Shown here in pieces: positions 1,911 to 26,978 of a DNA stretch of 33,820 nucleotides. This DNA is from a virus. Every line of letters begins with the position of its first letter. Positions within the stretch are counted from its first letter, which is position 1. Location of the stretch: IMG/VR virus record IMGVR_UViG_3300032397_000043, positions 1-33,820 of that record; one strand, written 5' to 3'. Under the pieces are notes generated by a model. It saw only the letters and a program-made list of their open reading frames with translations, was not told the DNA's origin and did no database searches. Made by a program: the position numbers and the translations under genes.

Positions 1911-2248
1911 TCGTGATTTCCTTAGCTTATCAGCTACTTACCGTCTATCACGGATCTGAACGCGTTGAGTACACGATTTCGTCGGGGTCGGTCGAGCATC
2001 CGACCCCGACCGGGGAGTTTGTTGTCACGGCGCGCGATCGTGATCACGTGAGTAATCGCTGGCCTAAACCGCACGGTGGCGCGAAAATGCCGTACGCCCT
2101 TTTGCTGCGCGACGGGCTAGCGCTGCACGCCGGCGATGTGTCGAAGCCGCGAGCAAGTCACGGCTGCATCCGGCTATCACCTATCGCGGCGCGCCACCTT
2201 TATTCGATCGTTACTGTCGGTACACGCGTATTAATTACCACCAATTAG
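1898..2248 (+). CDS. Minimal L,D-transpeptidase (YkuD domain)
   Basis: 116 residues that are almost exactly one YkuD catalytic domain. The N-terminus (LIVISLAYQLLTVYHG) matches the first strand of the fold, followed by PTPTGEF at 35-41. The catalytic motif has His77 in LHAGD and SHGCIRL at 87-93 with nucleophile Cys90. YkuD enzymes form 3-3 crosslinks in peptidoglycan or attach proteins to it. There is no clear cleavable signal peptide, so how it would reach the periplasm is unclear. AGGAG lies seven bases before the ATG. The 3' end overlaps the 3' end of the convergent endolysin gene by 18 bases. Presence in a phage is unusual. Active-site residues are intact. Confidence 0.88.
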   Translation: MQTLIVISLAYQLLTVYHGSERVEYTISSGSVEHPTPTGEFVVTARDRDHVSNRWPKPHGGAKMPYALLLRDGLALHAGDVSKPRASHGCIRLSPIAARHLYSIVTVGTRVLITTN

Positions 2249-2770
2249 GTAATCCATCGGAAAGCCAGGGCCTGGGTCTGTGTGGCCGCCCTTGATTTTA
2301 TAGGCGATCGTAACTTGCGCATGCGTAGTTACGCCTTTTTTGCCGCTGCGAATTTCTGCGGCGCTTACATATTGTGCCGGTAGGTGATAGTTTCTGCACG
2401 TAGCGAATACGAGTTCGCGGGCTAAATCTAGCATCTTTCGCCCGTAATCGTCTAACCATTCTTCTCGAGTTTGCGCTGCACGACCGGCAAGTTCAACGCC
2501 GATCGCGCGATCGTTCACCCCTCGAGCGTGCCACGCGACCATTTTCTCTGGTACGCATTCCACGATCGAGTCGCAATCGACGGCGTAGTGCGCGCTCGCC
2601 TTGATCCATTTTTTTCCGTCCCACGGTTTAGCAAACCAGGCGGCGATATTTTCGGCGCTGCTCGGCCGCTCGCTGGTTTCGGCCGAGTGGATTACGACTA
2701 GATCTGTGATGAGGCGAAGATCGCCATGAAATTTAGCTGGTACGATTTTCACGGTTTTACCCACAAGCAC
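2231..2770 (-). CDS. N-acetylmuramoyl-L-alanine amidase (Amidase_2), endolysin
   Basis: 179 residues from the GTG at 2770, chosen because AAAGAGG lies seven bases upstream; a longer frame to 2809 overlaps the preceding gene further. Zinc-binding/active-site residues of the Amidase_2/PGRP fold are visible: His28 (VVIHSAE), Glu93 (GVELAG), His150 (TTHAQV) and Asp165 in HTDPGPGF, with His163 at the place of the catalytic lysine in AmpD. It cleaves the lactyl-amide bond between MurNAc and the stem peptide. There is no signal peptide, so export would depend on a holin. It is the last gene of the long minus-strand operon and converges on the L,D-transpeptidase. Confidence 0.9.
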   Translation of the reverse strand: MLVGKTVKIVPAKFHGDLRLITDLVVIHSAETSERPSSAENIAAWFAKPWDGKKWIKASAHYAVDCDSIVECVPEKMVAWHARGVNDRAIGVELAGRAAQTREEWLDDYGRKMLDLARELVFATCRNYHLPAQYVSAAEIRSGKKGVTTHAQVTIAYKIKGGHTDPGPGFPMDYLIGGN

Positions 2771-2952
2771 GGCAAGCCCTCTTTCGGGTCGTTGATAATG
2801 ACCTCCCACACGACGAGCATGTTGTGTACGTACTCGTGTAGAAGTAGGATTTTTTCAGGCGAAGCTTTTTCCCAACCTCCGACCTCTAGATAGGTCTGAT
2901 AGAGATCGTGAATGTTTAGCGCTAGAATTTCACTCCGCTCTTTATTGTCCAA
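2749..2952 (-). CDS. Hypothetical small protein before the endolysin
   Basis: 67 residues from a TTG start, with AGGAGG four bases upstream. Its 3' end overlaps the endolysin start by 22 bases. The protein is helical, with a hydrophobic C-terminal half. It contains HEYVH at about residues 39-43, which fits HExxH, but the protein is too short for a known zincin and I do not call it an enzyme. No signal peptide or membrane segment. Family not recognised. Confidence 0.6.
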   Translation of the reverse strand: MDNKERSEILALNIHDLYQTYLEVGGWEKASPEKILLLHEYVHNMLVVWEVIINDPKEGLPCLWVKP

Positions 2953-2960
2953 AATTCCTC

Positions 2961-3275
2961 CTAGAACGGACAGGTTTTAATCTGGCAATTGCAATCGCCT
3001 AGCAGCTGATTTAGTCGATCTCTTATTTCTTGAAGGTCTTTTATAGGTACCGTATAGAGCCCTTCTGCTCGGTCGTACGCCCGCGAGGCCGCGCGTAGCG
3101 TAGATGTGTTGGGCTCTACTTCGTAGGCCATCCTGTACCAGCCTGCGGCTTCGCTGTACTTGCCCTTTAGGAAAAGTTCAGTGGCCTTATCGAAAGTCTT
3201 TTCGGCGCTAGGCGTGTCGGCCGCTACAAGAACACCCGCGGCTAGTACCACTAGAAGTACAGCGATTTTTTTCAT
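2961..3275 (-). CDS. Secreted TPR-like protein
   Basis: 104 residues from the ATG at 3275; the frame is open to 3320 but that would hide a clear signal peptide (MKKIAVLLVVLAAGVLVAA, predicted cut near residue 19). The mature part holds a TPR-like helical pair at about residues 27-68 (ATELFLKGKYSEAAGWYRMA with the Gly/Tyr/Ala spacing of a TPR). The C-terminus has three cysteines (95, 97, 102), suited to disulphides in the periplasm. The gene lies directly downstream of the caspase gene (44 bases between stop and start). TPRs bind other proteins, so a role as partner of a neighbouring envelope protein is possible. Family not otherwise recognised. Confidence 0.65.
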   Translation of the reverse strand: MKKIAVLLVVLAAGVLVAADTPSAEKTFDKATELFLKGKYSEAAGWYRMAYEVEPNTSTLRAASRAYDRAEGLYTVPIKDLQEIRDRLNQLLGDCNCQIKTCPF

Positions 3276-3319
3276 AGTCCCCGCGCGCCGATCAGCGAGC
3301 GCACGCGCGGGGTATACCA

Positions 3320-4150
3320 CTAGAGGTATTTAGGAAACGGGCGATCCAAAATATTTTGATCGCCGCTAGTTTGAGGCTTTTGCTCGAACCCGTAAACACA
3401 TAGAGTGCTACGACATTTCTCCACGATGTTACCCAGAGGCAGATCGGGATACTGAGCGAGCATTTTCAACAGTATCCATGTAAACGCCCCGTTAGGTCGC
3501 CCCGAAAATTCGGCGTCGGACGACGTTCCGCTCGACTCGCAACCAGATAAAAGACACACGCCTGGCATATCGTTTACTAGTGTTCGAAGGGACCGTTTAG
3601 GGGCACCCTCCGGTAGAGAACGTTTCCGCCAAGCCAGATCGGGGGGAGCCTGTAGACGGCGCGCCGAGCCTATTTTCACGCCTCGTGCCCACGATCCGGG
3701 ATTAGGCGAGTCTCGAAGTAAGCCGTCCGAGTGACAGCTATCGGAAATAATTATTACGGTCGACCCCGCTTTTTTTAGATCCAATATCCAACCGATTTTA
3801 TTATCGAGTAACCAGGTGTTCTCGTCGGCCCAGTCGAAACCGTACGGGCAAATCAGCTCATCTAATCTGTCTACCTCTCCACTACCAGAGCGATACGCGT
3901 ACTGTGCACCGTGCGAGGAGTTTGATATAACTACCGTATCGCCGCTATTTGCTTTTACAATGGCCGAGGTGATACGCTCGATCATCCCTTTGGCCGTTGC
4001 TCGTTCGTCAACGCACAGGCGCACGGTACCCATTGGCCAGGTGTATTGATAATGCAACGCACTGGCGATATCGACAGCGTCGTTTACGCACCCGCGAAGC
4101 GGGGAATTTTCGTACTTGTTAATTCCGAAACAAACGGCACTACTCGACAC
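3320..4150 (-). CDS. Caspase-family (peptidase C14) metacaspase-like protease
   Basis: 276 residues starting at a GTG with GCGAGGG five bases upstream. The caspase p20 fold is recognisable: the opening SSSAVCFGINKYEN strand, RGCVNDAVDIAS at about 19-30, catalytic His80 in SNSSHG, RLDELICPYGFDW at 95-107, and catalytic Cys139 in SDSCHS. The p10-like part includes LLSGCESSGTSSDAEF and PNGAFTWILL. Both dyad residues are present, so it should be active; metacaspases normally cut after Arg or Lys. Residues 146-189, between the two halves, contain eleven Arg/Lys, a plausible self-processing linker. No signal peptide or membrane helix, so it should act in the cytoplasm. It overlaps the upstream lipoprotein gene by 11 bases and precedes the secreted TPR gene. 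Target unknown; host-killing, counter-defence or virion processing are all possible. Confidence 0.9.
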   Translation of the reverse strand: MSSSAVCFGINKYENSPLRGCVNDAVDIASALHYQYTWPMGTVRLCVDERATAKGMIERITSAIVKANSGDTVVISNSSHGAQYAYRSGSGEVDRLDELICPYGFDWADENTWLLDNKIGWILDLKKAGSTVIIISDSCHSDGLLRDSPNPGSWARGVKIGSARRLQAPPDLAWRKRSLPEGAPKRSLRTLVNDMPGVCLLSGCESSGTSSDAEFSGRPNGAFTWILLKMLAQYPDLPLGNIVEKCRSTLCVYGFEQKPQTSGDQNILDRPFPKYL

Positions 4151-4568
4151 GATAGCCCTCGCTACGAAGCACTTTTTTCGTGAGCTCGGACGAGGCCTGA
4201 TAGTTTTTTACAGCGTCTCGCGCTGCACCCAAATCTTTGCCCCCGGCTAACAGGCTCCCGTATTCTAGATCTACCATATCGTAAGCGTCCGCTGTGTCGT
4301 CGCAACCGGTCACGATTACGCGCTGCGTATCTAGATCTAGGCTTCTGTCGCGATACGCGGCGTTACAAGTCTCAACAACTTTGGCGTAATCAGGGTTAAT
4401 TACTTGCTCGATATACGCCAAAATCTGCGCCACTGTCTCAAGTCCCGTGACCACGGCCGGGATCGCGGCCGGTATCGCGGCACACGAATAGTTGCCGCCG
4501 GCCATGCACGCAGTAATAATTCCTGTCCAAACCAATCGCGATTTCAAATACTGTAGAATTGTTTCCAA
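4140..4568 (-). CDS. Probable lipoprotein, outer-spanin-like by position
   Basis: 142 residues from a TTG start with GAAGGA four to five bases upstream. The N-terminus has Lys9 and Arg11, a short hydrophobic stretch (LVWTGI) and a lipobox ITAC with Cys21, so a type II signal peptide is likely although its core is short. A Pro/Ala-rich segment (AAIPAAIPAVV) follows, then a mostly helical domain with Cys68 and Cys89. It sits just after a membrane-anchored coiled-coil gene, as in inner/outer spanin pairs, but it is longer than many outer spanins and has no diagnostic family match that I recognise. It overlaps the caspase gene by 11 bases. Confidence 0.55.
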   Translation of the reverse strand: METILQYLKSRLVWTGIITACMAGGNYSCAAIPAAIPAVVTGLETVAQILAYIEQVINPDYAKVVETCNAAYRDRSLDLDTQRVIVTGCDDTADAYDMVDLEYGSLLAGGKDLGAARDAVKNYQASSELTKKVLRSEGYRVE

Positions 4569-4586: not shown

Positions 4587-4838
4587 CTACTTTTTGAGTA
4601 ACTGAATTATGAGATCTAACTTCTTATCTATATCATTGACACGTTCCGTGGTTCGTGTCAAGTCGGTACGAATTTTAGCATGCTCGTCGGTATTCGAAGT
4701 CAAACCCGAAACTTGCGTCGCGCCGTACAGGGCTATCGCTATCGCAAGCCCCATACCTACGATCCAGGTCACCGGCCCGCGCGCGCGAACGCCTTGACCG
4801 TCTACTTGCAATTCATTGTGGGGCTCTAAGTGCGTCAC
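4587..4838 (-). CDS. Membrane-anchored coiled-coil protein (spanin- or holin-accessory-like)
   Basis: 83 residues. The GTG at 4838 is chosen because it overlaps the TGA of the preceding small gene as GTGA; an in-frame ATG at 4886 would lie inside that gene and has no RBS. Residues 22-40 (VTWIVGMGLAIAIALYG) form one transmembrane helix with arginines on its N-terminal side, predicting N-in, C-out. Residues 50-83 are charged and heptad-like, a coiled coil in the periplasm. This is inner-spanin topology; an XhlA-like accessory protein is an alternative, though XhlA has the helix at its C-terminus. Confidence 0.6.
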   Translation of the reverse strand: MTHLEPHNELQVDGQGVRARGPVTWIVGMGLAIAIALYGATQVSGLTSNTDEHAKIRTDLTRTTERVNDIDKKLDLIIQLLKK

Positions 4839-4996
4839 TGCGTACCTACATTTCTTGAAAATAGCCGAGTTAAATATTGCCAACATTCATCACAAATTTG
4901 AGCTTTAAATGCGCGCTGCTCACCGCGAACGATATAGGTAATGGCGCCTTTTATTTCGCAATCACACCAGTAGCATTTTTTGTCGTTGTTATGCAA
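4835..4996 (-). CDS. Small zinc-finger-like protein (unannotated)
   Basis: 53 residues, TTG start at 4996 with GAGG four to five bases upstream inside the 3' end of the collagen fibre gene. Cys8, Cys11 and Cys13 (CYWCDC) and Cys35/Cys38 (CDEC) make a four-to-five cysteine zinc-ribbon pattern, as in short CxxC-CxxC phage proteins. Its TGA overlaps the GTG of the next gene. Starts and stops interlock with both neighbours (eight-base overlap upstream, GTGA downstream), which is good evidence that it is translated. Function unknown. Confidence 0.65.
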   Translation of the reverse strand: MHNNDKKCYWCDCEIKGAITYIVRGEQRAFKAQICDECWQYLTRLFSRNVGTQ

Positions 4997-6836
4997 ATAG
5001 CCTCACGAATACCGCGGGAATTGGTACCGCCGTTATCATTGTAGGAGGTGTTCCAAATGTAGCAGGTAATGCTCCGTATGTCAATGCTCTATATATACCT
5101 AATTGCGGTGCTGTACCTAACGTATTCCCATAGCCCAGTATAGGAATCATACTCGCCACAGCAAACGTACGAATAGTAGGAGTCCCCGCACATACGAGTA
5201 CTAGCCATTTAAGCCCCGACGTGAGCGCGAGATTAATTGTAATAGATTTCATTCCGGTCGACGCGATGCTAATCTCGCCAGCATCTAACAGCCGCGATCC
5301 TGGATATACTCCACTATCGGCGTAGATCCCGAGTCTCGCGTTTCCGGTTCCGGCCGTGGTAACACTAATTGCTATTCGATCGAGCGTGCATGCGCGAGGC
5401 GCGACGAACGGTATCGCGTACATGCGTCCCGCCGAAATTGCCCCAGTGGTCAGCGCCGTACCTGTTGTCGGCGCAGTGTACCATGCCTCGTAATTCGTTG
5501 TGCCGATGTGTCGGTAGTCGACGCCTATGCCAGTCGCGCCATCCGGTCCAGGATTGCCCACTGGCCCCTGATCACCCGTTGGTCCCTGTGGGCCGACAGG
5601 TCCCTGATCACCCGTAAGCCCTTTATCACCGGCTGGCCCTTTATCACCGGCTGGCCCTTTATCGCCCGCAATTCCGGGTATGCCTTGAACTCCCGGAGAG
5701 CCTTGAATGCCGGGAGGCCCTTGATCCCCTATCAAACCTTGATCACCTGTCGGTCCCTTGTCTCCAATAGGCCCCTTGTCTCCGATCAACCCTTTGTCGC
5801 CAGCGATACCGGGCGCTCCCTGGTCACCAGCCGGACCTTTATCTCCGACGACTCCCGGGCTACCCTGCACACCGGGAATCCCCTGCACACCCGGGATTCC
5901 CTGATCACCGATCGGACCTTTATCCCCCGGTGCGCCCTGCACTCCCGGTGCTCCATCTGGCCCGGGAAGGCCTGTCGGCCCCTGCGGGCCAACTGGCCCT
6001 TGCAACAGCCCCTCTCCTTCAACCGCCATAACACACGTTTCGTCCGTGGGGAATGCCACACATAATCGGCGTTTACCCGTGATATCCGTGTCAACAAATA
6101 TCCTAGCCCCATCCAGTGGAGAAGATGGTTCCGCAATCTCGCCTAGATCTATGCAATTGTGGATTCTGACCGCTCCGTCGTGCTTAATCGCTACACGTTC
6201 TACGGCATGAGTCCATAATTTAACTTCTGTTAATCCCAATGTAATTCGTTGTTCGTTATTTCCAGAATTGCACAATCCGTGATTATCGTCGTTGGGTAAC
6301 GATACCCAACCCCCAAACATCGCGCTACCTATCTGATCTATAGATCCGTGATTGCGTATCCCGTAATTTGTAGCGCCCGTCGCGGACGCTTGAATTTCTA
6401 AAGCGATTGTTTCATCCCACGTTATATTAGGATCTCGCACAAAATCTTCGATGAGAAACGCGATAGCTTGATGCACTCGACGCGGGACTCCGTCCGCGAC
6501 ACTTCGCAAACGCAATACCATTCCGCAGTGAGACGTAGTGGTGTCACCTCCTAATTGTTGTATTACCGGCTGTATCCCGATCAACGCAACGGAGTCCGCT
6601 CCCGGTCCCGGACATATTATATCCGGCGTATCCTCTACTGGACCAGTTCCAATGCAAATTTGTGTTTCGCCAGGAACAAAACTGCGATGTGATATGAAAA
6701 TGTGCTCTCCGGTTGCGTTGGGGGCCGCGCGTAAATTCATGTGTACTTTAGCGATAGCCGCTGCCGGAGGTGACGCCTCGGTCCCTATTTTTAGTGATCC
6801 CGATATGATGGCGTTTTCTGCAACAACATCTTTCAT
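4989..6836 (-). CDS. Collagen-like tail fibre / adhesin
   Basis: 615 residues from the ATG at 6836 (GGAGGAG eight bases upstream); the frame is open to 6887 inside the preceding gene. Residues 1-279 form a beta-rich N-terminal region with no family I can name. Residues 280-438 (DNA 5523-5999) are 53 uninterrupted Gly-X-Y triplets, rich in GDK, GDQ and GPx. These should form a collagen-like triple helix, with Lys-Gly-Asp/Pro pairs giving stability in place of hydroxyproline. A C-terminal domain of about 175 residues follows, with a YPGSRLLDAGEISIA segment of the type seen in phage fibre tip beta-sandwiches. Probable role: trimeric rod carrying a receptor-binding tip. It is the last of the fibre genes. 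Confidence 0.85.
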   Translation of the reverse strand: MKDVVAENAIISGSLKIGTEASPPAAAIAKVHMNLRAAPNATGEHIFISHRSFVPGETQICIGTGPVEDTPDIICPGPGADSVALIGIQPVIQQLGGDTTTSHCGMVLRLRSVADGVPRRVHQAIAFLIEDFVRDPNITWDETIALEIQASATGATNYGIRNHGSIDQIGSAMFGGWVSLPNDDNHGLCNSGNNEQRITLGLTEVKLWTHAVERVAIKHDGAVRIHNCIDLGEIAEPSSPLDGARIFVDTDITGKRRLCVAFPTDETCVMAVEGEGLLQGPVGPQGPTGLPGPDGAPGVQGAPGDKGPIGDQGIPGVQGIPGVQGSPGVVGDKGPAGDQGAPGIAGDKGLIGDKGPIGDKGPTGDQGLIGDQGPPGIQGSPGVQGIPGIAGDKGPAGDKGPAGDKGLTGDQGPVGPQGPTGDQGPVGNPGPDGATGIGVDYRHIGTTNYEAWYTAPTTGTALTTGAISAGRMYAIPFVAPRACTLDRIAISVTTAGTGNARLGIYADSGVYPGSRLLDAGEISIASTGMKSITINLALTSGLKWLVLVCAGTPTIRTFAVASMIPILGYGNTLGTAPQLGIYRALTYGALPATFGTPPTMITAVPIPAVFVRLFA

Positions 6837-6856
6837 GCTATATTCTCCTCCGGTGA

Positions 6857-8014
6857 TCAAAAAGGGGAGCATATCTCCAGTTCGCATATGGCACCGTCGA
6901 ACTGTTGATTCATCGTTGCCAAATCGCCCGTATCATACGCTCCTAATATTAAATGCCCATCAGATCGCGCGGGAGGAGTGCCGGAAACCGTCCCGTTACC
7001 CGCAGTGAACAAGCTGGCAATTAGGGTTCCTGAAATTCTCCGCCATTCCCATCTGCATCGCTGATGCGCAGACCATGTCAATGCGTCGGTGGCCGCGATA
7101 TCGGTCCCATCAACTTCAACGTGTAGTTTTAAATCATCCGAGTATAAATAGAATCCTACCGAGTTTGCTCCGCTATCGCAAAAACGCGCGATATATTTTT
7201 TCGTGTGGGCGGCGCATGTCGCGAGTTCGGCGCTAGAATACCCTGGATATATATCTCCGCCGCAACTATCGCGGAGATCTGTCGGCACTATTGCCGCAGG
7301 GTAATGCGCCTTATCCTTGTTTGTTGTGATGGTCGTCCCGAAAGTGTGGATCGGACGCCCGGCGTAGTAGCTATTTTCTTCTACCTGGCAACACCAATAT
7401 AGAAAATTATCGCCAGCTGCGCCTAGTAAATAGTTGAAATTGGCAGCGTTATAAACGCCCTCATAAATCGTAGTTCCAGAAATGTTTCGTGACGTTGTAT
7501 ACCTATTCCACACGGCTGTAGGAGATATATTTTGATAATTGGGAGAGCCCGCCTTGTAGTAGGATACAACCGATCCCGCCGTACCTAATTTACAAAAAAA
7601 CGATACCGCTATACGTTCGGCGGAGGGTCTACCAGCGAAAGTGCGAAATCGTTGTGATCCGGTACTGGTAGCCGGGTCCGTGGTAGTCATACGGATACAG
7701 TCTGTACTAATCGGACTACCACCCGCTACGGTACTTAGCACTCCAGCTTCACCCCACGTTGCTAACGTAGTTCCGTCGGGCTCTAGATTCGTGAGAGACC
7801 GCCAAACACTCAAACACCGTTTACCATTAACCGTGACAATAGCCGGTACGCCCGATCCGAATGGTCCGGTTACAGATCCCGTTACGGGATTTATTACATA
7901 ACGGGGAGAGGTGTTGGTGAAGGTCAACAAATTAAACGACAAGTAACTATAGATCCCTGACGCTATAGGCAAACGCTTTGCCAGCACTAAATCTAGTAGT
8001 ATGCCAGATTTCAT
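6857..8014 (-). CDS. Tail-associated adhesin with carbohydrate-binding-like domains
   Basis: 385 residues, ATG preceded by AGAGGAG at five bases. The N-terminal region includes NLEPDGTTLATWGEAG and a beta-sandwich pattern (ERIAVSFFCKLGTAGSVVSYY, WNRYTTSRNISG) of the kind found in carbohydrate-binding modules. The C-terminal 180 residues (CGGDIYPGYSSAELATC, LHVEVDGTD, DGHLILGAYDTGD) look like a concanavalin/laminin-G-like sandwich that is common in phage tail proteins. Eight or more cysteines is high for a phage protein. Placed between two fibre genes, it is probably a receptor-binding or decoration component. Domain assignment is from pattern only. Confidence 0.6.
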   Translation of the reverse strand: MKSGILLDLVLAKRLPIASGIYSYLSFNLLTFTNTSPRYVINPVTGSVTGPFGSGVPAIVTVNGKRCLSVWRSLTNLEPDGTTLATWGEAGVLSTVAGGSPISTDCIRMTTTDPATSTGSQRFRTFAGRPSAERIAVSFFCKLGTAGSVVSYYKAGSPNYQNISPTAVWNRYTTSRNISGTTIYEGVYNAANFNYLLGAAGDNFLYWCCQVEENSYYAGRPIHTFGTTITTNKDKAHYPAAIVPTDLRDSCGGDIYPGYSSAELATCAAHTKKYIARFCDSGANSVGFYLYSDDLKLHVEVDGTDIAATDALTWSAHQRCRWEWRRISGTLIASLFTAGNGTVSGTPPARSDGHLILGAYDTGDLATMNQQFDGAICELEICSPF

Positions 8015-8023
8015 ATATCTCCT

Positions 8024-8431
8024 CTATGACGGACGACAAACTGCAATTACTGTTAGCCAAAATCTACCTGTTAAGCACTTGAAACACAATTCAACGAAGT
8101 TACAATTTACGTTACCTATATTGATCAGTTTCTCAAACGGCGCTGTAGTTACATCCGGTAAATCTGCCGCGTATATGCCAGGCAATTCTGGTAGATGCTC
8201 GCTACCTACGTAAGTCGTCGGCGTCGCGGCGACTTCACTTCCGCGCTGATGTCGAATACGGTTACCGCCGCGCGGTATGAACGATCCTGTACCGCCGCCT
8301 TTTAACCACACTTCGTAGCTCACTCCGGACATGTTGCTGGGCAATTCCAGTTGTTGAGAAAACCAAGACTTACCCGCGGCAACTTCTACGTTGTCCGCAA
8401 GTAAAATACCATTTGATCGCGCTAATTCCAT
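8024..8431 (-). CDS. Hypothetical fibre-associated protein
   Basis: 135 residues from the ATG at 8431, which lies just past the stop of the propeller gene and has TAGGGA and GGAG upstream. It starts MELARSNGILLADNVEVAAG, then a Gly-rich section (LKGGGTGSFIPRGGNRIRH), and ends in a hydrophobic Cys-containing segment with four cysteines. No membrane or signal features are convincing. Its position among fibre genes suggests a small virion or assembly protein. Family not recognised. Confidence 0.5.
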   Translation of the reverse strand: MELARSNGILLADNVEVAAGKSWFSQQLELPSNMSGVSYEVWLKGGGTGSFIPRGGNRIRHQRGSEVAATPTTYVGSEHLPELPGIYAADLPDVTTAPFEKLINIGNVNCNFVELCFKCLTGRFWLTVIAVCRPS

Positions 8432-8435
8432 ATCC

Positions 8436-9530
8436 CTAACTCCAATCTTCTTCAACACTAAATGATGTATGAATTTCTCCGGCGTCGCCGGCGACTATAA
8501 ATTTCCCATTTAAAAATACACAACCGCACAAATCTTGTCCGACGGCGGCGTAGCGCTCAATAAATGTGATGCCGTCGTGTGTTGATTGTATTCCGCAATA
8601 CCCAGCGGTTGATAATTTACCGATTGCTATAGCGACTCCATTACCAATCGCGACATCGAAAAGATCTGCAACGTGTGCCGGAGTGCGTAGATGCCATGTG
8701 CTATTTGGTGCCCCAGTAGTAACCCATATTTTCCCGCTGTTTCCTACCGCAATCCATGTAGCGGTCGTCCCGACTAGCCCGGCGGTTACTGAATACAAAT
8801 CTCCGCTCTTTGTGGTTTCAGTCCACGCCCCAGTCGAATTAGTCGTATACCACACCGCGCCGCTAGCTCCAACTGCTACCCAGTACGTATTGTAGTAGTG
8901 TACACCGTAAAGCGTGCCGCTACCTTGCGGATTTGAGGTCCAAGCGCCCGCCGGGTTTGCGCTGCGGTATCGAAGCGTTCCCGTAACTCCGACCGCGACC
9001 CAATATCCGTTACCGTAACCGACATCGTAAAAATGAGCCGCCCCTTGCGTGTTTGAGGTCCATGATCCGGTTGGGTCGGTAGCGTAATAGAGCGCGCCTG
9101 AGTCTCCCACCGCTACCCAGTATCCCGAACCGTACGCGATCGAATGGAGCGTCCCTCCTAGCGATACGCTCGTGTAGGTAATTCCGTCGTAGGTATATTG
9201 GATCGTACCTGTAGAGCTTACGACACATACGATTGTTCCGTCCGTAGCGGCCTTTTTGAAATTAACGGAGGCTGCGGCCGTACGCTTAGTCCAATTGTTC
9301 AACTGTAGGCGCGTAAGAGTCTTCCAAAGCGACTGTTGGATTTGATTGTTCGTCCCTTTCGCTAGCGTGCCAGTCGCCTCGACGACGTTACAGATTTCCT
9401 CTTGCACCGCATTTAGCCAATCGTCTGTGTTGCGTGTCGCCGCTGTTATTCCAGGGCTGCCTTCCGTAAAGCCGTCTTTACCAGCGCCGTTCCCGTCTAC
9501 CAGTTTAGTCGTACTATCTATTCGGTGCAT
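8436..9530 (-). CDS. Tail fibre with seven-bladed beta-propeller
   Basis: 364 residues. The N-terminus (DDWLNAVQEEICNVVEATG followed by L-x-KGTNNQI) is a typical fibre attachment segment in Mu- and P2-like phages. From about residue 90 to the end there are seven repeats of roughly 35-40 residues; the best conserved read GYWVAVGDSGALYYAT, GYWVAVGVTGTLRYRS and TYWVAVGASGAVWYTT, each followed by GxWT. Seven copies of a four-stranded motif predict a closed propeller, probably the host-binding head. It overlaps the gp48-like gene by 13 bases, and GGAG sits ten bases before the ATG. Confidence 0.8.
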   Translation of the reverse strand: MHRIDSTTKLVDGNGAGKDGFTEGSPGITAATRNTDDWLNAVQEEICNVVEATGTLAKGTNNQIQQSLWKTLTRLQLNNWTKRTAAASVNFKKAATDGTIVCVVSSTGTIQYTYDGITYTSVSLGGTLHSIAYGSGYWVAVGDSGALYYATDPTGSWTSNTQGAAHFYDVGYGNGYWVAVGVTGTLRYRSANPAGAWTSNPQGSGTLYGVHYYNTYWVAVGASGAVWYTTNSTGAWTETTKSGDLYSVTAGLVGTTATWIAVGNSGKIWVTTGAPNSTWHLRTPAHVADLFDVAIGNGVAIAIGKLSTAGYCGIQSTHDGITFIERYAAVGQDLCGCVFLNGKFIVAGDAGEIHTSFSVEEDWS

Positions 9531-10915
9531 TGCGTAAATTCTCCGTAAGAGTGAAAACTCGGGATCGTGTGCAGAGGTACGCCCGCACCGACTCGCCCTT
9601 CTAGCTGCGAATCAATTTCGCTCGCGCGCACGTGCCCTACATACAGGACAGTGCCACTGTCCACTACAAAATACAAAGCTGGGCTAGAGCTACCTACTGT
9701 TCCGTTATCTACTTCGATCTCGTACTTCTGCCAGTCGTCAGTGAGCAGTAAAACGTCAGTGTTAATCAAATCACCGTGCAGATTGTGCGCAGTTATGCTT
9801 ATCATATAGTCGCTACCTGCTACGCGTAGCCACATAGAGCATCGAACGTAGCGCTTCTTCGCCGTCGGCAGTATGCCTATTCCGTACGCGCCCGTGGGGG
9901 TTAGAGAGTAGGCTAACTGCTGGCGACTAACGGGCTCAGTTACTACGTTGTTGGCGACGGTGAGATTGTAAGTAGCCCAGGCTACTTTACCAGCACTGCG
10001 GTTAGTAATATCAACGCCGTATTCTACCCCGAAAACGTGCGCCCAACTCTCACCTGGCGAATCCCCGACTACAGATCCAGCAGAGTCAATCGCGTAATAC
10101 CGTTCGCGCCAACCGCCGTAAGCGTTCGCTATAAGCACGGTGGCGTTAGTGCCACCTACTAGCCAAAGCTGCACTAACGGATCGTACGAGCCTGTGCCCA
10201 CATCCAGTACGATCGCCGTGTAACGACGCCACGTGTTCGTAATCGTTATAGTCTCTGTTAGTTTCAATACGCCGTCTCTACCCGCTACTTTTAGATAAAA
10301 CTGATCGCTCGCGCCTCCCACCAATTTCAGGTCTAGTTCGATAAATACGGCCTCAAAGTTTGCTATTCGCAACAGAGTAAGTGTTGCTACTGCGGCCGTA
10401 GTAGGAAGTAAAACTCGCTCTGCCGTCAACGCCCCGTCGCGATCTGTCTCGCAATTATAGGTCACCGATGCGCCCGCACTACCTACTACTGCTGCTCCTC
10501 CCGATGCTTGTTGGAACGAATCGACTAGTCGGTATCCGTCGAACGTCGCGTTACTAGCATTGAGGGCGTCCACTAGATTTTCGAATTTTGCTAGCGTAGG
10601 CGAGCCAGGTCCGCGTAGTTTCGCAATTAATGCCTGTACTCGCTCTTCGTCGGTTTGAGTCTCAGGCGTGAACTCGTCCGGAAGTCCCGCGACCCGTTCC
10701 CATGATTCCAAAAGCTCGGCCGGATAGGCGTAACTATCCGCATCCGGTATCGCCTCGTTGATCAGCTCAAGCGCCTGCTCGTCTACGCGCGCTAGCTCAT
10801 AGGTAGCCGCACGCGCGAGGCTATCCCAATTGTCGGCTTCACCCACTTGCTCAGGCCAAAGTGGCCCTTTAGGGAGCAGCGTGTAAAAGATCTTCGCGTA
10901 ATCAGAGGACAGCAT
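9518..10915 (-). CDS. Mu gp48-like (DUF2313/YmfQ) tail protein with large insertion
   Basis: 465 residues, more than twice the usual size of about 190. Residues 1-130 match DUF2313: SSDYAKIFYTLLPKGPLWP, a SWERVAGLPDE segment and DALNASNATFDGYR. The family-like C-terminus (LHTIPSFHSYGEF) reappears at the very end. Between them, residues 135-445 hold two similar jelly-roll-type sections, each ending in a W-x-x-Y strand (TWRRYTAIVLDV; DWQKYEIEVDN), like carbohydrate-binding modules. The start is a TAATG overlap with the gp47 stop. In Mu this protein joins baseplate and fibre; here it may also touch surface glycans. Confidence 0.8.
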   Translation of the reverse strand: MLSSDYAKIFYTLLPKGPLWPEQVGEADNWDSLARAATYELARVDEQALELINEAIPDADSYAYPAELLESWERVAGLPDEFTPETQTDEERVQALIAKLRGPGSPTLAKFENLVDALNASNATFDGYRLVDSFQQASGGAAVVGSAGASVTYNCETDRDGALTAERVLLPTTAAVATLTLLRIANFEAVFIELDLKLVGGASDQFYLKVAGRDGVLKLTETITITNTWRRYTAIVLDVGTGSYDPLVQLWLVGGTNATVLIANAYGGWRERYYAIDSAGSVVGDSPGESWAHVFGVEYGVDITNRSAGKVAWATYNLTVANNVVTEPVSRQQLAYSLTPTGAYGIGILPTAKKRYVRCSMWLRVAGSDYMISITAHNLHGDLINTDVLLLTDDWQKYEIEVDNGTVGSSSPALYFVVDSGTVLYVGHVRASEIDSQLEGRVGAGVPLHTIPSFHSYGEFTQCTE

Positions 10916-11973
10916 TAAGGGAAAGTCACCGTTCCTAGAACCAGAATTTCGTCGATGTCACTAACCACGTTAGCGGCCGGAATCGACATAATGTGATCTT
11001 CCTCATCCGTGGCCGAGGAAATGGCCTCGTTTATTTTGCTGAGCGTCAGTGTGCTATCGGGTTCCGCTTCACGTAACAGCAAATCTTCGAGCGCTGTCTC
11101 GATAGCTGCCTGTACCGCTGTCGTGTTTGGCGTAAGGCTAGTCAGCGTAACATTAAGAGTTTTTTCGGTTAGCTCAATGATCGATACGTCGGCGGTAACG
11201 GGGCGATAGAGCTCAATATAATCCAACACCTCGGTACGTTCCGCGCCATCTGGTACGATCGTGCCCACGTCGTTATCTCGAACGAACGCTACCGACACGG
11301 TGCCAGGGCCGCTTTGCAGCGGGAATTCCCAAGCGCGCGTTACGCCGGAAACTTCCATAGCCCAGCGCGCATAGTCACCAGGGCCGCCGCCGCTCGGCGG
11401 TTCACGAATTTGTTGCAGCAAGCGCTCTAGTCCGTCGTCTTTCGTCTCTAGATCTACCCCGGTCTGGGTAGTGGCTTGCACCGTACCGTCACCGTCAATG
11501 CCTGTGATCGGGCTCACTAGAGATAAGATCTGGCCGTCGTCGCAATTCCAATCCGCGCCTGGGGAGCTGGCCGTAATCTCGACATCGATGTAGGTACCAC
11601 TTATCGCGGTCAGCGCATCGGTCGTGTAGGTATATCCATCCGAACGTTGTAGCTCGGTAGCGAGCGGGATAGAGGTGGTATCAGTACCGGTGAATCGGTA
11701 CGTACCTTTCCAGTACTCAGCTGCTTTTCGTTCCATACCGAACACGGCCGCCCAACGCCAAAAATGCGCCTCGTCGGCGGTATCGGGAAAAATCTGGCGC
11801 ATTATGTAACCGAACAAATAGCCATACATCCCGTGTGCTAACCCGGCTATCACGCGCGCTAGAACGTACTCTACCGTGCGCCGCAAGTGCGCATCAGCGC
11901 CCGCGAACTCTGCCTCAAAATCGTTTTTTACTCGCTCGATTAGAGCTTTCAAAGTCGGTCGATCAAGTGCCAA
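10915..11973 (-). CDS. Baseplate wedge protein, Mu gp47 / baseplate J-like
   Basis: 352 residues, TTG start with GGGAGGG five bases upstream. The opening PTLKALIERVKNDFEAEF, the DEAHFWRWAAVFGM segment and the GGGPGDYARWAMEVSGV section at about 205-222 are diagnostic of baseplate J-like/gp47 proteins. It forms the wedge ring around the hub. Length is normal. It overlaps gp46-like by 11 bases and is followed by gp48-like, which is the Mu order. Confidence 0.93.
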   Translation of the reverse strand: MALDRPTLKALIERVKNDFEAEFAGADAHLRRTVEYVLARVIAGLAHGMYGYLFGYIMRQIFPDTADEAHFWRWAAVFGMERKAAEYWKGTYRFTGTDTTSIPLATELQRSDGYTYTTDALTAISGTYIDVEITASSPGADWNCDDGQILSLVSPITGIDGDGTVQATTQTGVDLETKDDGLERLLQQIREPPSGGGPGDYARWAMEVSGVTRAWEFPLQSGPGTVSVAFVRDNDVGTIVPDGAERTEVLDYIELYRPVTADVSIIELTEKTLNVTLTSLTPNTTAVQAAIETALEDLLLREAEPDSTLTLSKINEAISSATDEEDHIMSIPAANVVSDIDEILVLGTVTFP

Positions 11974-12406
11974 TTTCGCCCTCCCACACCGCTACATAGC
12001 GCGGCGCTAGGTCCGTAGGTCGTTTCACCCAAACGCCAACTTGGAGTTGATCGTCGTCACCGCGCGATGCCGTAGGCTCGACAGATTCGGCCACGCCATC
12101 ATCAAGCAACCACTTGAGCGCTTCGTTCATCAAATCTACCGCCAGCGCTAAATTTTCATCGTTGATTTTCTTACCTGATAGCAACCAAAGCCTAGAACCG
12201 ATCAAGTCGCGGGCGACGTCGGGGTACGTATCCCCCCAAAAGCCAGCCAAGTTCGATTTGTCGGGAGCTTCGTCATCAGGCGAGGCGCGGCGCCAGGTAA
12301 GGAGCGAAATCGCGATCGCGGTCTCAAGTTCGTTGCCTTGCTGAATACCGCCATCAACGAACAAGTCGCCCTGGCCAAGCTCGTTATCGAAAGTCAGGGA
12401 AATCAT
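11963..12406 (-). CDS. Phage GP46-family baseplate protein
   Basis: 147 residues with the GP46 signature: an N-terminal DLFVDGGIQQGNELETAI, a TWRRASPDDEAPD section and GFWGDTYPD. In Mu-like phages this protein joins baseplate wedge and tube-sheath start (P2 gpW / T4 gp25 role). The start is an ATGA overlap with the spike gene. Length and position are normal. Confidence 0.9.
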   Translation of the reverse strand: MISLTFDNELGQGDLFVDGGIQQGNELETAIAISLLTWRRASPDDEAPDKSNLAGFWGDTYPDVARDLIGSRLWLLSGKKINDENLALAVDLMNEALKWLLDDGVAESVEPTASRGDDDQLQVGVWVKRPTDLAPRYVAVWEGEIGT

Positions 12407-12987
12407 GTGGCTTTCACTTTCGTCGCGGCCGGCGAGGTCGGCGAATAGGTGAGCACAAGGGGCGGCACAGGATGGTCGCTAGGCGAGCCAGGCGCGGCAC
12501 ACACGTGCGTGTGCCCGGAAGCGCCCGCCCATAATTTCACCGCGTCTAGATCGCTTTTAATCCCGTCCAACTCGCTCTTTACTTTCGCCGCGAGCGCCAC
12601 GAAATCAGAGCCGCTTTTCGCGCCTAGGTGTACTTTTCCAGTAGAATCCAAAAACACCCCAAACGTACCGGCGTAATACAGACCGCCTTCTCCCTCGCCG
12701 ATACCGTCGCCGCCCGGTGTATCGTCGCGTTTCTGGGCGTCCACTAGCACCGCAGCTGCCCGATCCCCGGCCGCCGCTAGGAAGAGCCCTTCCGCACCGA
12801 CTTTCGGCCGGAAGTAGAGGCCTTGCGGCTGCATATATTCGACTTCGTCGCTAGTGCGATCGGCCGTCCACTCGACCTGTACTAGAGGTAGCGAAGTCGC
12901 ATCTTTCGATCGCCCAACAAGTCCGCGCAAAATAGCCGAATTGATCCGGCTCCATGTTTTGCGCATCCATGATCGATCGGGGGTCAC
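12403..12987 (-). CDS. Baseplate spike, Mu gp45 / gpV-like
   Basis: 194 residues from a GTG that overlaps the hub gene stop as GTGA. The N-terminal OB-like region runs to about residue 90. The section after it is a beta-helical stem, and the tip has a His-x-His pair (His159, His161 in GHTHV), the iron-binding apex motif of gpV/gp45 membrane-piercing spikes. It acts as a trimer at the tube tip and punctures the outer membrane. The tip also has a short coiled section (VKSELDGIKSDLDAVKLW), unusual directly before the HxH. Confidence 0.9.
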   Translation of the reverse strand: MTPDRSWMRKTWSRINSAILRGLVGRSKDATSLPLVQVEWTADRTSDEVEYMQPQGLYFRPKVGAEGLFLAAAGDRAAAVLVDAQKRDDTPGGDGIGEGEGGLYYAGTFGVFLDSTGKVHLGAKSGSDFVALAAKVKSELDGIKSDLDAVKLWAGASGHTHVCAAPGSPSDHPVPPLVLTYSPTSPAATKVKAT

Positions 12988-14129
12988 TTTACTTTCACCG
13001 ATTTCGGGGTAAAAGATTTTTTACCGCTCGCGTTCCAGGCCTGGTTTCTATCTGGTAACTCTAGCATAGAATAGGCCTCGGGGCTAGTGAATTCTAACTC
13101 CGTGCGCAGCCCCTCAATTCCGAGCAAAAACCTGGCCGAAGTAACGAGTAAAGATGCGTCCACTTTGAGCAGATCGTCTTGAATACGTACTTGCTGCCCG
13201 GGCTCCCATAAAATACCGCCAGGTCCGACCAACCCGTCGACCGTGTAGGCCAGTTTATCCGATCGCGCCGCGCGTACCGAACGCTCCCATTGCGCGCGCT
13301 CGTCCATGTCTTTTTTCGCGCCCGCGATTTCGGCCATGATTATGATCGGCCGATAGCGTAAAATCGATGCGTCTTCGGCCTCCCCTTTTACAGTAACCGT
13401 ACTCGATCCAAAATATTCGTCGGTCGATGAAAGTTGCCCTTTAAAAATATACTTGCTGTAGCGATCTTGCTCTGCATGGGTGAGGCGACGACTAGTGATC
13501 GTATTGGGGTCTAGCACGCCCGCAGCAAGTCCCGCGATCAAGCCCGTAATACTGCCAAGGCTCGAAGCGGTACTAGCCGAATCTGAGCGCACGATCGCGA
13601 CGCCGCCGTCCGGAGTGGTAATCGGAAGACACGCCCGAATGCGGCACGCCCGATCGATAGCGTCGTGTGCCGTCTCGCCCTCGTCCAACTCGAAACGCTT
13701 GAACTTGCGCGAAATATTCGAGCGGTCTTCTACGTCAATACCAAAAGGCTCGCAAAGATCCTTAACTAGCGTCTCAAGGGTGACATTTTTCCACTGCCCC
13801 GTTTTGTGTATCGCCGAACAATCAACAAGGTCCGCTGTTCTCGATCGCCCAGAGGCGCTAAGTTCGTAGGTGCTACCGGTAATCTCGTGATCAGATTGCG
13901 TAATATACCCAGTAATAAGCGTCTGTTCACCCCACGAAAGGGTACATTTAGCGCCAGGCCAGATCTGCCAAGGTTCACCTTCCAACGTCCACTTATCGCA
14001 GTACCGCAACACGAACGAATGTGCGAACTCGTCAAGGCTTTTATTTACCTCAACTTCCAACCAACCGATAAATTTTATACCGTCGATCTTGAGCGTAAAC
14101 TCAGGAGCGGAGTCCGTTAGGTTAAACAT
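12984..14129 (-). CDS. Baseplate hub protein, Mu gp44-like
   Basis: 381 residues with the gp44/gpD hub pattern: KFIGWLEVEVNKSLDEFAHSF at about 20-40, WTLEGEPWQIWPGAKC, ITGYITQSDH and SASGRSRTADLVDCSA at about 107-122. It forms the trimeric hub that carries the spike. No lysozyme-like insert is seen. It overlaps the upstream N-like gene by eight bases. Length is normal for the family. Confidence 0.9.
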   Translation of the reverse strand: MFNLTDSAPEFTLKIDGIKFIGWLEVEVNKSLDEFAHSFVLRYCDKWTLEGEPWQIWPGAKCTLSWGEQTLITGYITQSDHEITGSTYELSASGRSRTADLVDCSAIHKTGQWKNVTLETLVKDLCEPFGIDVEDRSNISRKFKRFELDEGETAHDAIDRACRIRACLPITTPDGGVAIVRSDSASTASSLGSITGLIAGLAAGVLDPNTITSRRLTHAEQDRYSKYIFKGQLSSTDEYFGSSTVTVKGEAEDASILRYRPIIIMAEIAGAKKDMDERAQWERSVRAARSDKLAYTVDGLVGPGGILWEPGQQVRIQDDLLKVDASLLVTSARFLLGIEGLRTELEFTSPEAYSMLELPDRNQAWNASGKKSFTPKSVKVK

Positions 14130-15462
14130 TCGAAATCACCTCAATCGCAAGTCCCCCCGGAACAAACGACGGATGATTAATTTCGTCTAAGTTACGCGCT
14201 TCAATATCGAGATCGCTATCTGCACGTTGGTACAGGCGATACGCGATTACGATCGCGGGTTCGGTCTCTTGCGGAATGTACGAGGTAACGGTAGGCAATT
14301 CTCCGGCGACGTTAGTTAAGTGCTGAACCAGAGCCACACGTAACGCGCGCATACGCTCATGAACCAATTCTAGTTGAGGACCGTCACCCGAAACCAAACT
14401 CGTCGGGGACACACTGTCGTCGATCGCACTTTGGCTGTCCATCTCGTCGCTTTCGGCGAACGTATTAAACTGAGTAACTAAAAGATCTCGTAACGCAAGC
14501 GCACGCTGAGCGCTGGTTTGAACTATCGTAGGTTGCGCGGTCTGCACGGTCTGGGCGTTGGTTTGCGCCAGCGTCGCAGAAACTTTAGCAACACCCACTA
14601 GCATACTGCCTTTTACCGCCCGTATAAGCGCGTTCTGATTCACACGCTGCTTGTCTCGCGCCGGCGTCGCGATCGCTGGTACAGACTCGATAGTAGATCC
14701 TAAAGTGCTGGCCTTTTTAGATACCGGGAAAAGAGCACCGATAGAATCCATAACCCGATCGATCGAACTCAACACGTCGGCTACGAACTCCTGTATCGTG
14801 TTGATTAGTTTTTGGGGCGTGTTAATTAGATCCGCTAGCGCTTTACTAAACTCGTCCAAATCGCTGGCGATATTACCGGGAACGCTGAGTAGTTTATCTA
14901 TGTCTTTGTTTATGCTCTGTATACCGTCGGTGAGATTTTCCAACGCATCTAGGTTCGCGGAACGAACAAAACCCTGAACGCCATCAACCGAAAACGAGCC
15001 AACGAAATCGCTATTCAACGCCTCGTTCGCGTCGTCCACTGCGTTCAGCACGCTAGATAGCGTATCGAGGCCGGCACTCGGCGTACTCAGATCTAGGTAT
15101 TTTCGAAACGTAAACTCGATATGGGCAACGCCGCCCTCCGCGGTAGTCTCGCGCACGCGCGCAGGCCCGTCAATTACGACCTGCAATTTGCCGTAGTACG
15201 GATGCACTAACTCGCCAGGGCCAGGCTTTTCTAGCGCAGCTATTAGCGCGTCGCGCGCCTTGTCGTAATTATCCCCGACGAGTATCGCCGAAACCGACGG
15301 GCGCCGCGGAAGCCTGCCCATATCGCGCGCAACGCTCGCCCCAGATTCATCAAGAGGCAAATCATAAAACACCACGCGGCGACCGACCTCATAGTCCGAC
15401 GACTCGGTATAGAATTTTACACCGCGAAACGATGCTTTTTTGTATCGATTTTTCCAGCTCAT
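14122..15462 (-). CDS. Mu gpN/gp43-like tail protein with DNA circularisation N-terminal domain
   Basis: 446 residues. The first 120 residues (SWKNRYKKASFRGVKFYTE, GDNYDKARDALIAALEKPGPGELVHPYYG) match the DNA_circ_N domain of Mu gpN, a tail/baseplate component. The middle is helical and low in complexity (residues about 170-260). The start overlaps the tape measure stop as ATGA. The old link to DNA circularisation is historical; a structural role at the baseplate is more likely. Confidence 0.88.
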   Translation of the reverse strand: MSWKNRYKKASFRGVKFYTESSDYEVGRRVVFYDLPLDESGASVARDMGRLPRRPSVSAILVGDNYDKARDALIAALEKPGPGELVHPYYGKLQVVIDGPARVRETTAEGGVAHIEFTFRKYLDLSTPSAGLDTLSSVLNAVDDANEALNSDFVGSFSVDGVQGFVRSANLDALENLTDGIQSINKDIDKLLSVPGNIASDLDEFSKALADLINTPQKLINTIQEFVADVLSSIDRVMDSIGALFPVSKKASTLGSTIESVPAIATPARDKQRVNQNALIRAVKGSMLVGVAKVSATLAQTNAQTVQTAQPTIVQTSAQRALALRDLLVTQFNTFAESDEMDSQSAIDDSVSPTSLVSGDGPQLELVHERMRALRVALVQHLTNVAGELPTVTSYIPQETEPAIVIAYRLYQRADSDLDIEARNLDEINHPSFVPGGLAIEVISNV

Positions 15463-17495
15463 GGTGTTTGGGAATTCTGCCCCGTGGCGAAATCAGGGCC
15501 GTTACGGGACTTGGACATCTTCTTTACTCGCACGCGATCGTCACTAACCGCTATCTCGATCGTACCCCCGACTTGAACCGGGGTTTGCTGGCCTTGACTA
15601 AACAGCGGGACGGTGCTCAATTCCGGAGTTGTGCCTTCGCCCCACACAGAGGGAACCATCGATGTCGTATTACGTAGATTCTCGGTAGTTTTTCGATATC
15701 TTTGTCCCGCGCCGGCGAGGCCTTCCGAGTACGCCTCGCGCTCTTGCGCGTTACGCCGTTTATTACCTACTGCCACGTCGACTATGCTCTGTATGCCGAA
15801 AGTTTTCCCGATCGTACTAACGAAATTGTTGAATGAGTCGGACTCGCCCATCTTCAGCGCGGCCTCGGTGCTCAACAATTCGCCGCGCAATTTAAACGCT
15901 TTGCCGATCCAGCTATCCAACAAATTACCGATCGCGTAACCGCCAACGGCCGCCCCCATGACACCTAGCGCCGTTGTCACGCCCACCATCGCCGGCCCTA
16001 AATTCATCAAACCGGCGCCTACCGTGCTAGCCAAAGCCCAAGCACCGCGCGCTAGACCAATACCCGCTTTCAATAGCGTCATGGCACTCGCCAGACCAGA
16101 TAGCGCCAATGTCAGTGGCCCCATTACGGCCGCAAACCCCGCTACGTAAATAAGCATCTTGCCGGTATTCTGTACCGCCTCGGGATTAGCTTTCGCAAAA
16201 TCCGCGATTTTACCTATCAGACTTTGCATGTCCTTGGTCAGTGGTTGCAAAGCTGGCGCAAATTTCTCGGCGAGATCTATATAAAGAGTTTGCAGGCTAT
16301 TGTGGAGCTTTTTTACTCCGGCCGTTTGGGTAGTGCCCATGCTTTTAGTTACACGATCTAGCACGCCCTCACCGTTCACGGCCGCGCCCGCGATTTTATC
16401 GAACGCCGAAACCCCGTCATCCCCGACACGAGTAAGCGAGTTCAGTAGTGTCGGTAAAGACTTCATAAGACGCGGACCGAACACGGTACTAAGAACCTTA
16501 AAGCGCATCGCAGGATCGAGGCCCTTCTTATTCATCGCCTCGTTTATCATTTTGAGCAACGTAGCAGGCTCGTTCAAACTCCGCGCCATTTGCTTACCGG
16601 AAATACCGATCTTACCTAGCATAAGCGCGGCCTGCTTACTCGGTTTTCCAAGGGCCATAAGCATAGAGTTCATGGCCATTGCTGCGGTACCGCCTTTGAT
16701 GCCGGCGTCACCTAACAGGCCGATGAGCGTAGTAACTTGCTCCAACGAAACCCCGGCCGCCAAGGCCGCAGGCGCGCCCGTTCTAAGCGCGTCGTAAAGT
16801 TGGCCTACCGAGGTACCGCTCGCAATAGAGGTAGCACCTAACATACCAGCTACGCGCGAGGCATCGCCCGTTTTCATATTGAACGTGTTTAGCAGATCCG
16901 TAACCGCGTCCGTGGCCATCCCAAAGTCAAGACCCGAAAATTTAGCCAGCTTCAAAACGGTCGGCAACGTAGACAGCTGCTCGGCCGCGGAGAAACCCTC
17001 TTGCGCTAACTGCTCGAGCCCTTGCGCCGCTTGCACCGCGCTATACCCGGTCGCCGCCCCTATGCGTTTCGCGCCCGCTTCGAGCTCTTTAAACTGATTA
17101 TCGGTCAGCCCTTGCGTAATGCCTTTCACTCGCGCCATAGCGACATCAAAATCCATCGCCGGCGCAAGCACGGCAGTAAGCGCGTTACGCGCCTGACTAC
17201 CGAGCTGAGTAATCCCTTGTCCCGCCAGCGCCAGGTTACCAGCAAAGTCGAAACCCCCCAATAGCCCGCCGCGCCCGGTACGCCCGCCGCGACCAATAGC
17301 GGCCAACGGAGCCGGCACACCCGCAATCTGGCCGGCCGCCACTATCTGTCCACCGATATTGAAACCTCGGCTAGATTTCCGCAAACCGTCGCTCGCGCGC
17401 GCCACGCTAGAAAAGGCTTTTTGAATAGTGGCGGCGGGTCCGGAAACTAAATCCCGCAGCTTGATAGTGAGCGAAGCTGTAGCGTTAGCTGCCAC
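15459..17495 (-). CDS. Tail tape measure protein (Mu gp42-like)
   Basis: 678 residues, GTG start with GGGAG nine bases upstream. Residues about 110-330 form the TP901-type tape-measure core (DVAMARVKGITQGLT, GAATGYSAVQAAQGLEQLAQ). Hydrophobic segments (about 445-540) could serve as membrane-interacting parts. The overall composition is Ala/Gly-rich and helical. At about 0.15 nm per residue the tail would be near 100 nm. It follows the gp41 frameshift gene with an 11-base overlap, as tape measures do. Confidence 0.92.
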   Translation of the reverse strand: MAANATASLTIKLRDLVSGPAATIQKAFSSVARASDGLRKSSRGFNIGGQIVAAGQIAGVPAPLAAIGRGGRTGRGGLLGGFDFAGNLALAGQGITQLGSQARNALTAVLAPAMDFDVAMARVKGITQGLTDNQFKELEAGAKRIGAATGYSAVQAAQGLEQLAQEGFSAAEQLSTLPTVLKLAKFSGLDFGMATDAVTDLLNTFNMKTGDASRVAGMLGATSIASGTSVGQLYDALRTGAPAALAAGVSLEQVTTLIGLLGDAGIKGGTAAMAMNSMLMALGKPSKQAALMLGKIGISGKQMARSLNEPATLLKMINEAMNKKGLDPAMRFKVLSTVFGPRLMKSLPTLLNSLTRVGDDGVSAFDKIAGAAVNGEGVLDRVTKSMGTTQTAGVKKLHNSLQTLYIDLAEKFAPALQPLTKDMQSLIGKIADFAKANPEAVQNTGKMLIYVAGFAAVMGPLTLALSGLASAMTLLKAGIGLARGAWALASTVGAGLMNLGPAMVGVTTALGVMGAAVGGYAIGNLLDSWIGKAFKLRGELLSTEAALKMGESDSFNNFVSTIGKTFGIQSIVDVAVGNKRRNAQEREAYSEGLAGAGQRYRKTTENLRNTTSMVPSVWGEGTTPELSTVPLFSQGQQTPVQVGGTIEIAVSDDRVRVKKMSKSRNGPDFATGQNSQTP

Positions 17496-17873: not shown

Positions 17874-17891
17874 ATATCCTCCTACCGCAGT

Positions 17892-18245: not shown

Positions 18246-18255
18246 GTTACTCTCC

Positions 18256-19731: not shown

Positions 19732-19741
19732 GTCTTTTCTC

Positions 19742-19945: not shown

Positions 19946-19954
19946 GCCTATCTC

Positions 19955-22334: not shown

Positions 22335-22354
22335 CTTATCCTCCTAAGATGTGA

Positions 22355-23260: not shown

Positions 23261-23275
23261 GGTGTCCTATTTCCT

Positions 23276-24121: not shown

Positions 24122-24122
24122 T

Positions 24123-25136: not shown

Positions 25137-25142
25137 GCTGTG

Positions 25143-25756: not shown

Positions 25757-25793
25757 AAAATCCTCCTGTCTAAAACGTAGCAGATCGCCCGCC

Positions 25794-26969: not shown

Positions 26970-26978
26970 GCTATCCTC

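Follow-up and report, generated by a model that had tools for sequence, protein, structure and literature searches.

A metacaspase gene (Peptidase C14) is located in the late operon of a contractile-tailed phage, between the tail fibre and endolysin genes, and we hold with middling confidence that its product assists the phage lysis module as an accessory protease, acting at or after opening of the membrane. This reading is drawn from the fold, the catalytic dyad and Arg/Lys pocket, and the position of the gene in the late operon, together with recurrent endolysin or holin-like neighbours of related genes in unrelated phages and the exchange of the gene for a papain-like one in a closely related phage. 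The source is the 33,820-base linear virus record IMGVR_UViG_3300032397_000043, which was analysed over its whole length and is called the window below; the locus under study, 2961–4568, comprises three genes.

The window carries terminase, portal, head protease, major head protein, sheath, tape measure, baseplate and fibre genes, and is therefore a contractile-tailed phage. The minus strand encodes every gene from about 30,756 down to 2231, with mostly short gaps or overlaps, forming an unbroken late operon of about 28 kb with the following features.

4989..30756, minus strand: late-operon genes for packaging, head, contractile tail and fibres, with no strand switch before the lysis region
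24123-25136: head maturation protease (phrog_328, E 6.3e-59)
4989..6887, minus strand: collagen-like tail fibre, at the upstream edge of the lysis region
4587..4886, minus strand: 99-aa protein with one membrane segment followed by a tail that resembles a coiled coil, similar in shape to a holin or spanin
4140..4568, minus strand: probable lipoprotein of 142 aa, TTG start, lipobox judged by eye, no family
3320..4150, minus strand: metacaspase, Peptidase C14, compact p20+p10, 276 aa, GTG start after GAGG
2961..3275, minus strand: secreted 104-aa protein downstream of the caspase, with a Sec-type signal and one sub-threshold TPR match
2749..2952, minus strand: 67-aa gene between the secreted protein and the endolysin
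2231..2809, minus strand: endolysin, N-acetylmuramoyl-L-alanine amidase (Amidase_2), start uncertain (2770 or 2809)

The 3′ end of the operon thus reads collagen-like fibre, 99-aa protein, probable lipoprotein, caspase, secreted 104-aa protein, 67-aa protein and Amidase_2 endolysin, which bears out the placement between fibres and endolysin given in an earlier note on this DNA; the endolysin is matched by Amidase_2 (E 1.5e-20) and by a phrog endolysin family (1.7e-31). The caspase gene is co-directional with the endolysin gene and a holin-like gene within the late operon, as in a lysis module, the holin candidate (4587-4886) being assigned by shape.

The upstream neighbour of the caspase gene, 4140-4568 on the minus strand, overlaps it by 11 nt, as the earlier note had described. 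Its TTG start is preceded by AGAAGGAAAA, and its hydrophobic N-terminus with a lipobox-like ITAC makes the product a probable lipoprotein, with no convincing family in Pfam or PHROGs. Downstream, the product of 2961-3275 has a clear Sec-type signal (MKKIAVLLVVLAAGVLVA), so that the secretion claimed for it stands; its TPR character is less secure, because one repeat is matched at E 0.03 and about 14 bits against a Pfam cut-off of 27.

The plus strand carries three further genes of note. The gene at 1898-2248 encodes a YkuD L,D-transpeptidase (PF03734, E 3.6e-19) and is convergent with the endolysin gene. That at 486-998, bordering the lysis region, encodes a probable secreted lipoprotein with a HEMLHELAH (HExxH) motif, possibly a second, metal-dependent protease, and that at 73-396 encodes the N-terminal domain of a dATP/dGTP diphosphohydrolase (PF18909, E 3.4e-21).

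Identification of the caspase is supported by sequence and structure searches. Residues 5-262 match Pfam Peptidase_C14 at E 4.5e-18 (66.2 bits; cut-off 21.4), and the PADLOC 'caspase' model is matched at E 1.1e-11. A sequence search of the PDB returns Arabidopsis metacaspase 4 (AtMC4) first (E 1.1e-15), covering both the p20 and p10 parts, with the p10 segment aligned at residues 199-262; further matches are metacaspases from yeast and trypanosomes, and Geobacter GSU0716. The AlphaFold2 model, made with a 63-sequence alignment, has a pLDDT of 90.6 and a pTM of 0.89, with low confidence at 143-148, where the basic linker begins. This predicted structure has the caspase-haemoglobinase fold, p20 followed by p10, and matches metacaspase 4 best (Z 28.6), then GSU0716 (Z 25.7) and yeast Yca1 (Z 21.2). 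The metacaspase-like protease proposed at first sight is thus confirmed, as are its intact dyad, His80 and Cys139, and the exactly 11 Arg/Lys residues in the linker (146-189). The S1 pocket for Arg/Lys is likewise intact (Cys21, Asp24 and Asp137, equivalent to Cys92, Asp95 and Asp211 of TbMCA2 by alignment with PDB metacaspases). The absence of a signal peptide suggests a cytoplasmic location. The GC content of the gene, 0.52 compared with 0.53 for the window, fits the phage and gives no sign of very recent import.

The calcium site appears to be incomplete. Calcium is bound in the Candida enzyme CgMCA-I by Asp198, Asp214 and Asp245 (PMC9622860). In a manual alignment, Asp97 and Asp116 of the window caspase correspond to the first two of these and the third is replaced by Arg146, at a position where 51 of the 60 viral relatives have Arg or Lys (Arg in 48 of 60 viral and 20 of 23 bacterial ones). 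A simple calcium trigger is therefore doubtful, and calcium influx, the first mechanism considered, was weakened by the missing ligand and dropped. Orthocaspases without p10 are reported to be calcium-independent (PMC5756287).

Relatives of the caspase were found with searches of increasing breadth. A scan of IMG/VR with the single protein gave no relative, a two-row alignment retrieved a 485-kb phage alone, and wider profile-like scans of IMG/VR yielded at least 96 contigs with caspase relatives. Caspases are rare among sequenced phages: one of 50,697 INPHARED records, a 485-kb uncultured phage, has a relative, and PHROGs holds no caspase family matching the window caspase. Among predicted viral structures, the caspase-annotated matches at E <=0.001 come from viruses of eukaryotes, in nearly every case giant viruses, and include no phage protein. 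All 63 aligned viral members keep the His, Gly, Asp137, Cys and Ser141 positions, Asp137 thus being invariant, and Cys21 and Asp24 are at least 90% conserved. Bacterial genomes contain 257 candidate relatives under stricter patterns, the closest reaching 39% identity (L186); those inspected are chromosomal orphans without lysis genes or defence context. In the caspase tree, 11 changes between virus and bacterium occur as drawn, at least three of them forced by starred branches, and this mixing indicates repeated transfer of the gene between bacteria and phages. Viral proteins alone make up one set of 27 rows. The branch of the window caspase is long and belongs to a set of 17 rows that also contains Bacteroidota and five further phage proteins.

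Some of the viral caspases have unusual features. In the window caspase, Ser takes the place of the Gly that precedes the catalytic His (Ser-Ser-His-Gly, residues 77-81, listed 3395-3401), a motif shared by seven viral caspases (the window, L033, L055, L066, L069, L092 and L096). In the gene at L108:4660-6624, and also in that at L023:4801-6795, about 373 aa are inserted in frame immediately after the catalytic Ser-Gly-His-Gly motif, and the ends of this insert resemble those of an intein (Cys-Phe-Ala-Gly-Asp-Thr ... Val-His-Asn-Ser). The caspases of L036, L038, L056, L057, L068, L072, L073, L075, L077, L086 and L106 have a C-terminal, tail-anchor-like membrane segment, and several such genes adjoin Hsp20- and ClpS-like genes.

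The genes around the relatives were called by a codon-based script and named with Pfam, NCBIfam and PHROGs. The following arrangements were found, each handle denoting one viral contig.

L058: Amidase_3 endolysin, overlapping the caspase gene by 4 nt
L095: NlpC/P60 and PG_binding_1 endolysin, overlapping by 4 nt
L086: GH25 endolysin, overlapping by 1 nt
L083: GH25 endolysin, 24 nt from the caspase gene
L100: N-acetylmuramidase, immediately downstream of the caspase gene
L066: TIGR02594 protein of endolysin type, overlapping by 4 nt
L085: SLT enzyme, lipoprotein, caspase and small one-TM protein, the SLT gene being two genes from the caspase gene
L033: tail protein, 85-aa holin-like protein (4-nt overlap), caspase and integrase
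L092:4923-5990 and L098:2880-4013: patatin-like phospholipase (PF01734) that begins like a lipoprotein, its gene immediately upstream of the caspase gene

Terminase or sheath genes identify L058, L067, L098, L100 and L108 as phages, and the phospholipase of L092 and L098 could act on the outer membrane. Genes of the staphylococcal nuclease type occur near two caspases (L108:6636-6986 and L092:9307-9711). No homology was found between the one-TM protein of the window and that of L066.

The association was examined quantitatively by searching 50 whole records for nine peptidoglycan-hydrolase families, of which eight were used for the distance test, CHAP having been searched later. No hydrolase exceeded the Pfam cut-off in 32 of the 50 records, and the test, from which the window was left out, comprised 17. 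The caspase lies within 1 kb of a detected hydrolase in six of these 17, with 1.25 expected (P 0.0006), in a small set and at a threshold picked post hoc; P is 0.007 at 2 kb, 0.03 at 3 kb, 0.015 at 5 kb and 0.005 at 7 kb, and rises to 0.08 at 3 kb when weaker hydrolase matches are added. The proximity is carried by records below 100 kb; in phages above 100 kb (jumbo), the caspase is mostly far from any detected endolysin, and in L062, L064 and L065 it lies among glycosyltransferase-like genes. Small membrane proteins are enriched within two genes of viral caspases (16.5% vs 8.1%, P 0.00016), and their frequency near bacterial caspases does not differ significantly (5.3% vs 3.3%, P 0.17). Association of the caspase with lysis genes therefore recurs across unrelated phages, mainly in records below 100 kb. 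The search of phage genomes proposed in the earlier note thus recovered the conserved dyad and lysis neighbours, but not a TPR gene beside the caspase. Neither of the two outcomes that the note named as refuting its proposal was observed.

The closest phages found, L190 and L191, are collinear with the window over the stretch covered, and their baseplate J and sheath proteins are 75% and 76% identical to those of the window. The lysis region of L190 encodes a fibre, a small membrane protein, a small lipoprotein-like protein, two proteins of 262 and 88 aa, a secreted TPR-like homologue and an endolysin of the CHAP/TIGR02594 type; a search of the record revealed no caspase. The caspase slot is occupied by the 262-aa protein, which matches the papain-family protease 3ois (E 3.6e-8), retains the cysteine and histidine motifs and has glycine in place of asparagine; from its sequence it is predicted to be a papain-like cysteine protease. 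Pfam does not recognise the gene, and a single-sequence structure prediction gave a pLDDT of 31. A Peptidase_C1 gene is also present in L034, two genes upstream of its caspase. The occurrence of two unrelated cysteine-protease folds in one place suggests selection for proteolysis as such, and the slot seems to select a protease rather than a caspase specifically. However, papain-like folds in lysis cassettes can be peptidoglycan peptidases, as in Gordonia phage BetterKatz (PMC4982276), so the L190 gene need not encode an enzyme that cuts proteins.

The same comparison does not support the set of caspase, lipoprotein and TPR protein suggested from the window. The lipoproteins of the window and L190 show no sequence similarity, and the sole relative of the secreted 104-aa protein among viral contigs, a 49% homologue in L190, lies beside the papain-like gene. 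Because that relative accompanies a papain-like protease where the caspase is absent, a partnership of caspase and TPR protein is not upheld. In addition, 72 contigs that carry related baseplate J genes showed no caspase in the flanks covered, many of which end before the lysis region; this suggests that the caspase is an accessory of some lysis modules and not a core component.

On the accessory-lysis reading, the caspase would be synthesised late, alongside the structural and lysis proteins, stored in the cytoplasm and perhaps matured by cuts in its basic linker. When the holin-like protein opens the membrane, or thereafter, the caspase would cleave host proteins behind Lys/Arg, which might weaken the cell envelope, lower the viscosity of the cell contents or prevent progeny from adhering to debris. 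The late-operon position favours action at the end of infection; cutting of host defence proteins or exclusion of rivals is possible but found no specific support here. Weighing against this reading are the non-core status of the gene, its distance from the endolysin in phages above 100 kb, the post hoc threshold and the incomplete calcium site. A broader proposal is speculative and in our judgement rather unlikely: many phages would keep an interchangeable protease, either a metacaspase or a papain-like enzyme, inactive in the cytoplasm until membrane opening frees it to digest host proteins for the release of progeny. If this is true, phage lysis would gain a further enzymatic layer beyond opening of the membrane, cell wall and outer membrane.

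Lysis regions are a common site for cargo genes, and it is possible, if a good deal short of probable, that the caspase is such cargo (a moron) at a permissive insertion site, cutting some protein of the host or of a competitor that has no part in lysis, such as a defence protein or a receptor that rival phages use. Its accessory distribution among the related-baseplate contigs, its variable position, especially in large phages, its mobility between viruses and bacteria in the tree and the exchange of its slot in L190 are all consistent with cargo, but the substitute in L190 is again a cysteine protease, the repeated neighbours are endolysins of many families, and a place in the late operon is poor for early anti-defence. 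A protease carried in the virion, or one that cuts structural proteins during assembly, is improbable: the caspase gene adjoins fibre and tail genes in the window and tail sheath genes in L100 and L108, but the window already encodes a head maturation protease, and the relatives adjoin endolysins or holin-like genes rather than one conserved structural gene. We likewise give little credence to a host-death executioner acquired from bacteria, which would shut down the host in infection or trigger lysis on sensed superinfection or stress, because, despite the close bacterial relatives and the action of bacterial caspases in defence (the subject of the PADLOC model), the protein is a catalytic domain alone in which no sensor or regulator domain was found, the window lacks a defence-type partner gene and the bacterial relatives inspected lie outside defence contexts.

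Caspase-type proteases are familiar as eukaryotic cell-death enzymes, bacterial defence proteins and giant-virus genes. Their recurrence next to tailed-phage endolysins would imply that phages, too, finish the cell with this enzyme class; some phages may break down proteins in the dying cell as a step of lysis, and protein digestion in phage lysis becomes a testable question. A metacaspase is not described as a gene of a phage lysis cassette in the literature searched, which covered few subscription journals.

The window caspase resembles the plant type II metacaspases, represented by Arabidopsis metacaspase 4 (PDB 6w8s), in fold (Z 28.6 over 250 residues), dyad numbering (Cys139), acidic S1 pocket and the order of p20 before p10, but it is phage-encoded, has 276 rather than about 420 aa and a short linker, and carries Arg as the third calcium ligand. 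It shares with GSU0716 of Geobacter sulfurreducens (PDB 3bij; Z 25.7) a compact p20+p10 body with no extra domains, whereas GSU0716 is annotated as bacterial. An operon with a metacaspase and an N-acetylmuramoyl-L-alanine amidase in G. sulfurreducens is reported in a 2012 survey, which does not state whether it is the GSU0716 operon (PMC3501461). The same survey reports phage-related metacaspase operons in clostridial genomes (PMC3501461), an earlier hint of prokaryotic metacaspase genes in prophage-like operons, and in the text consulted describes them just as phage-related, without lysis context or mechanism. Anti-phage caspases (the PADLOC caspase, TPR-CHAT/Craspase and gasdermin-activating proteases) have the same C14/CD-clan protease fold; by contrast, the window caspase is the sole PADLOC match among five genes of the region, no NTPase, gasdermin, CRISPR effector or fused-TPR partner was found by Pfam and PHROGs in the surrounding ORFs, and the gene lies in a phage late operon. 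Metacaspases of giant viruses were already known (PMC10327091), and those of Fadolivirus and Clandestinovirus are likewise virus-encoded C14 proteases with the same fold, but they share 15-25% identity with the window caspase, belong to viruses of eukaryotic hosts and have no adjoining lysis genes of phage type.
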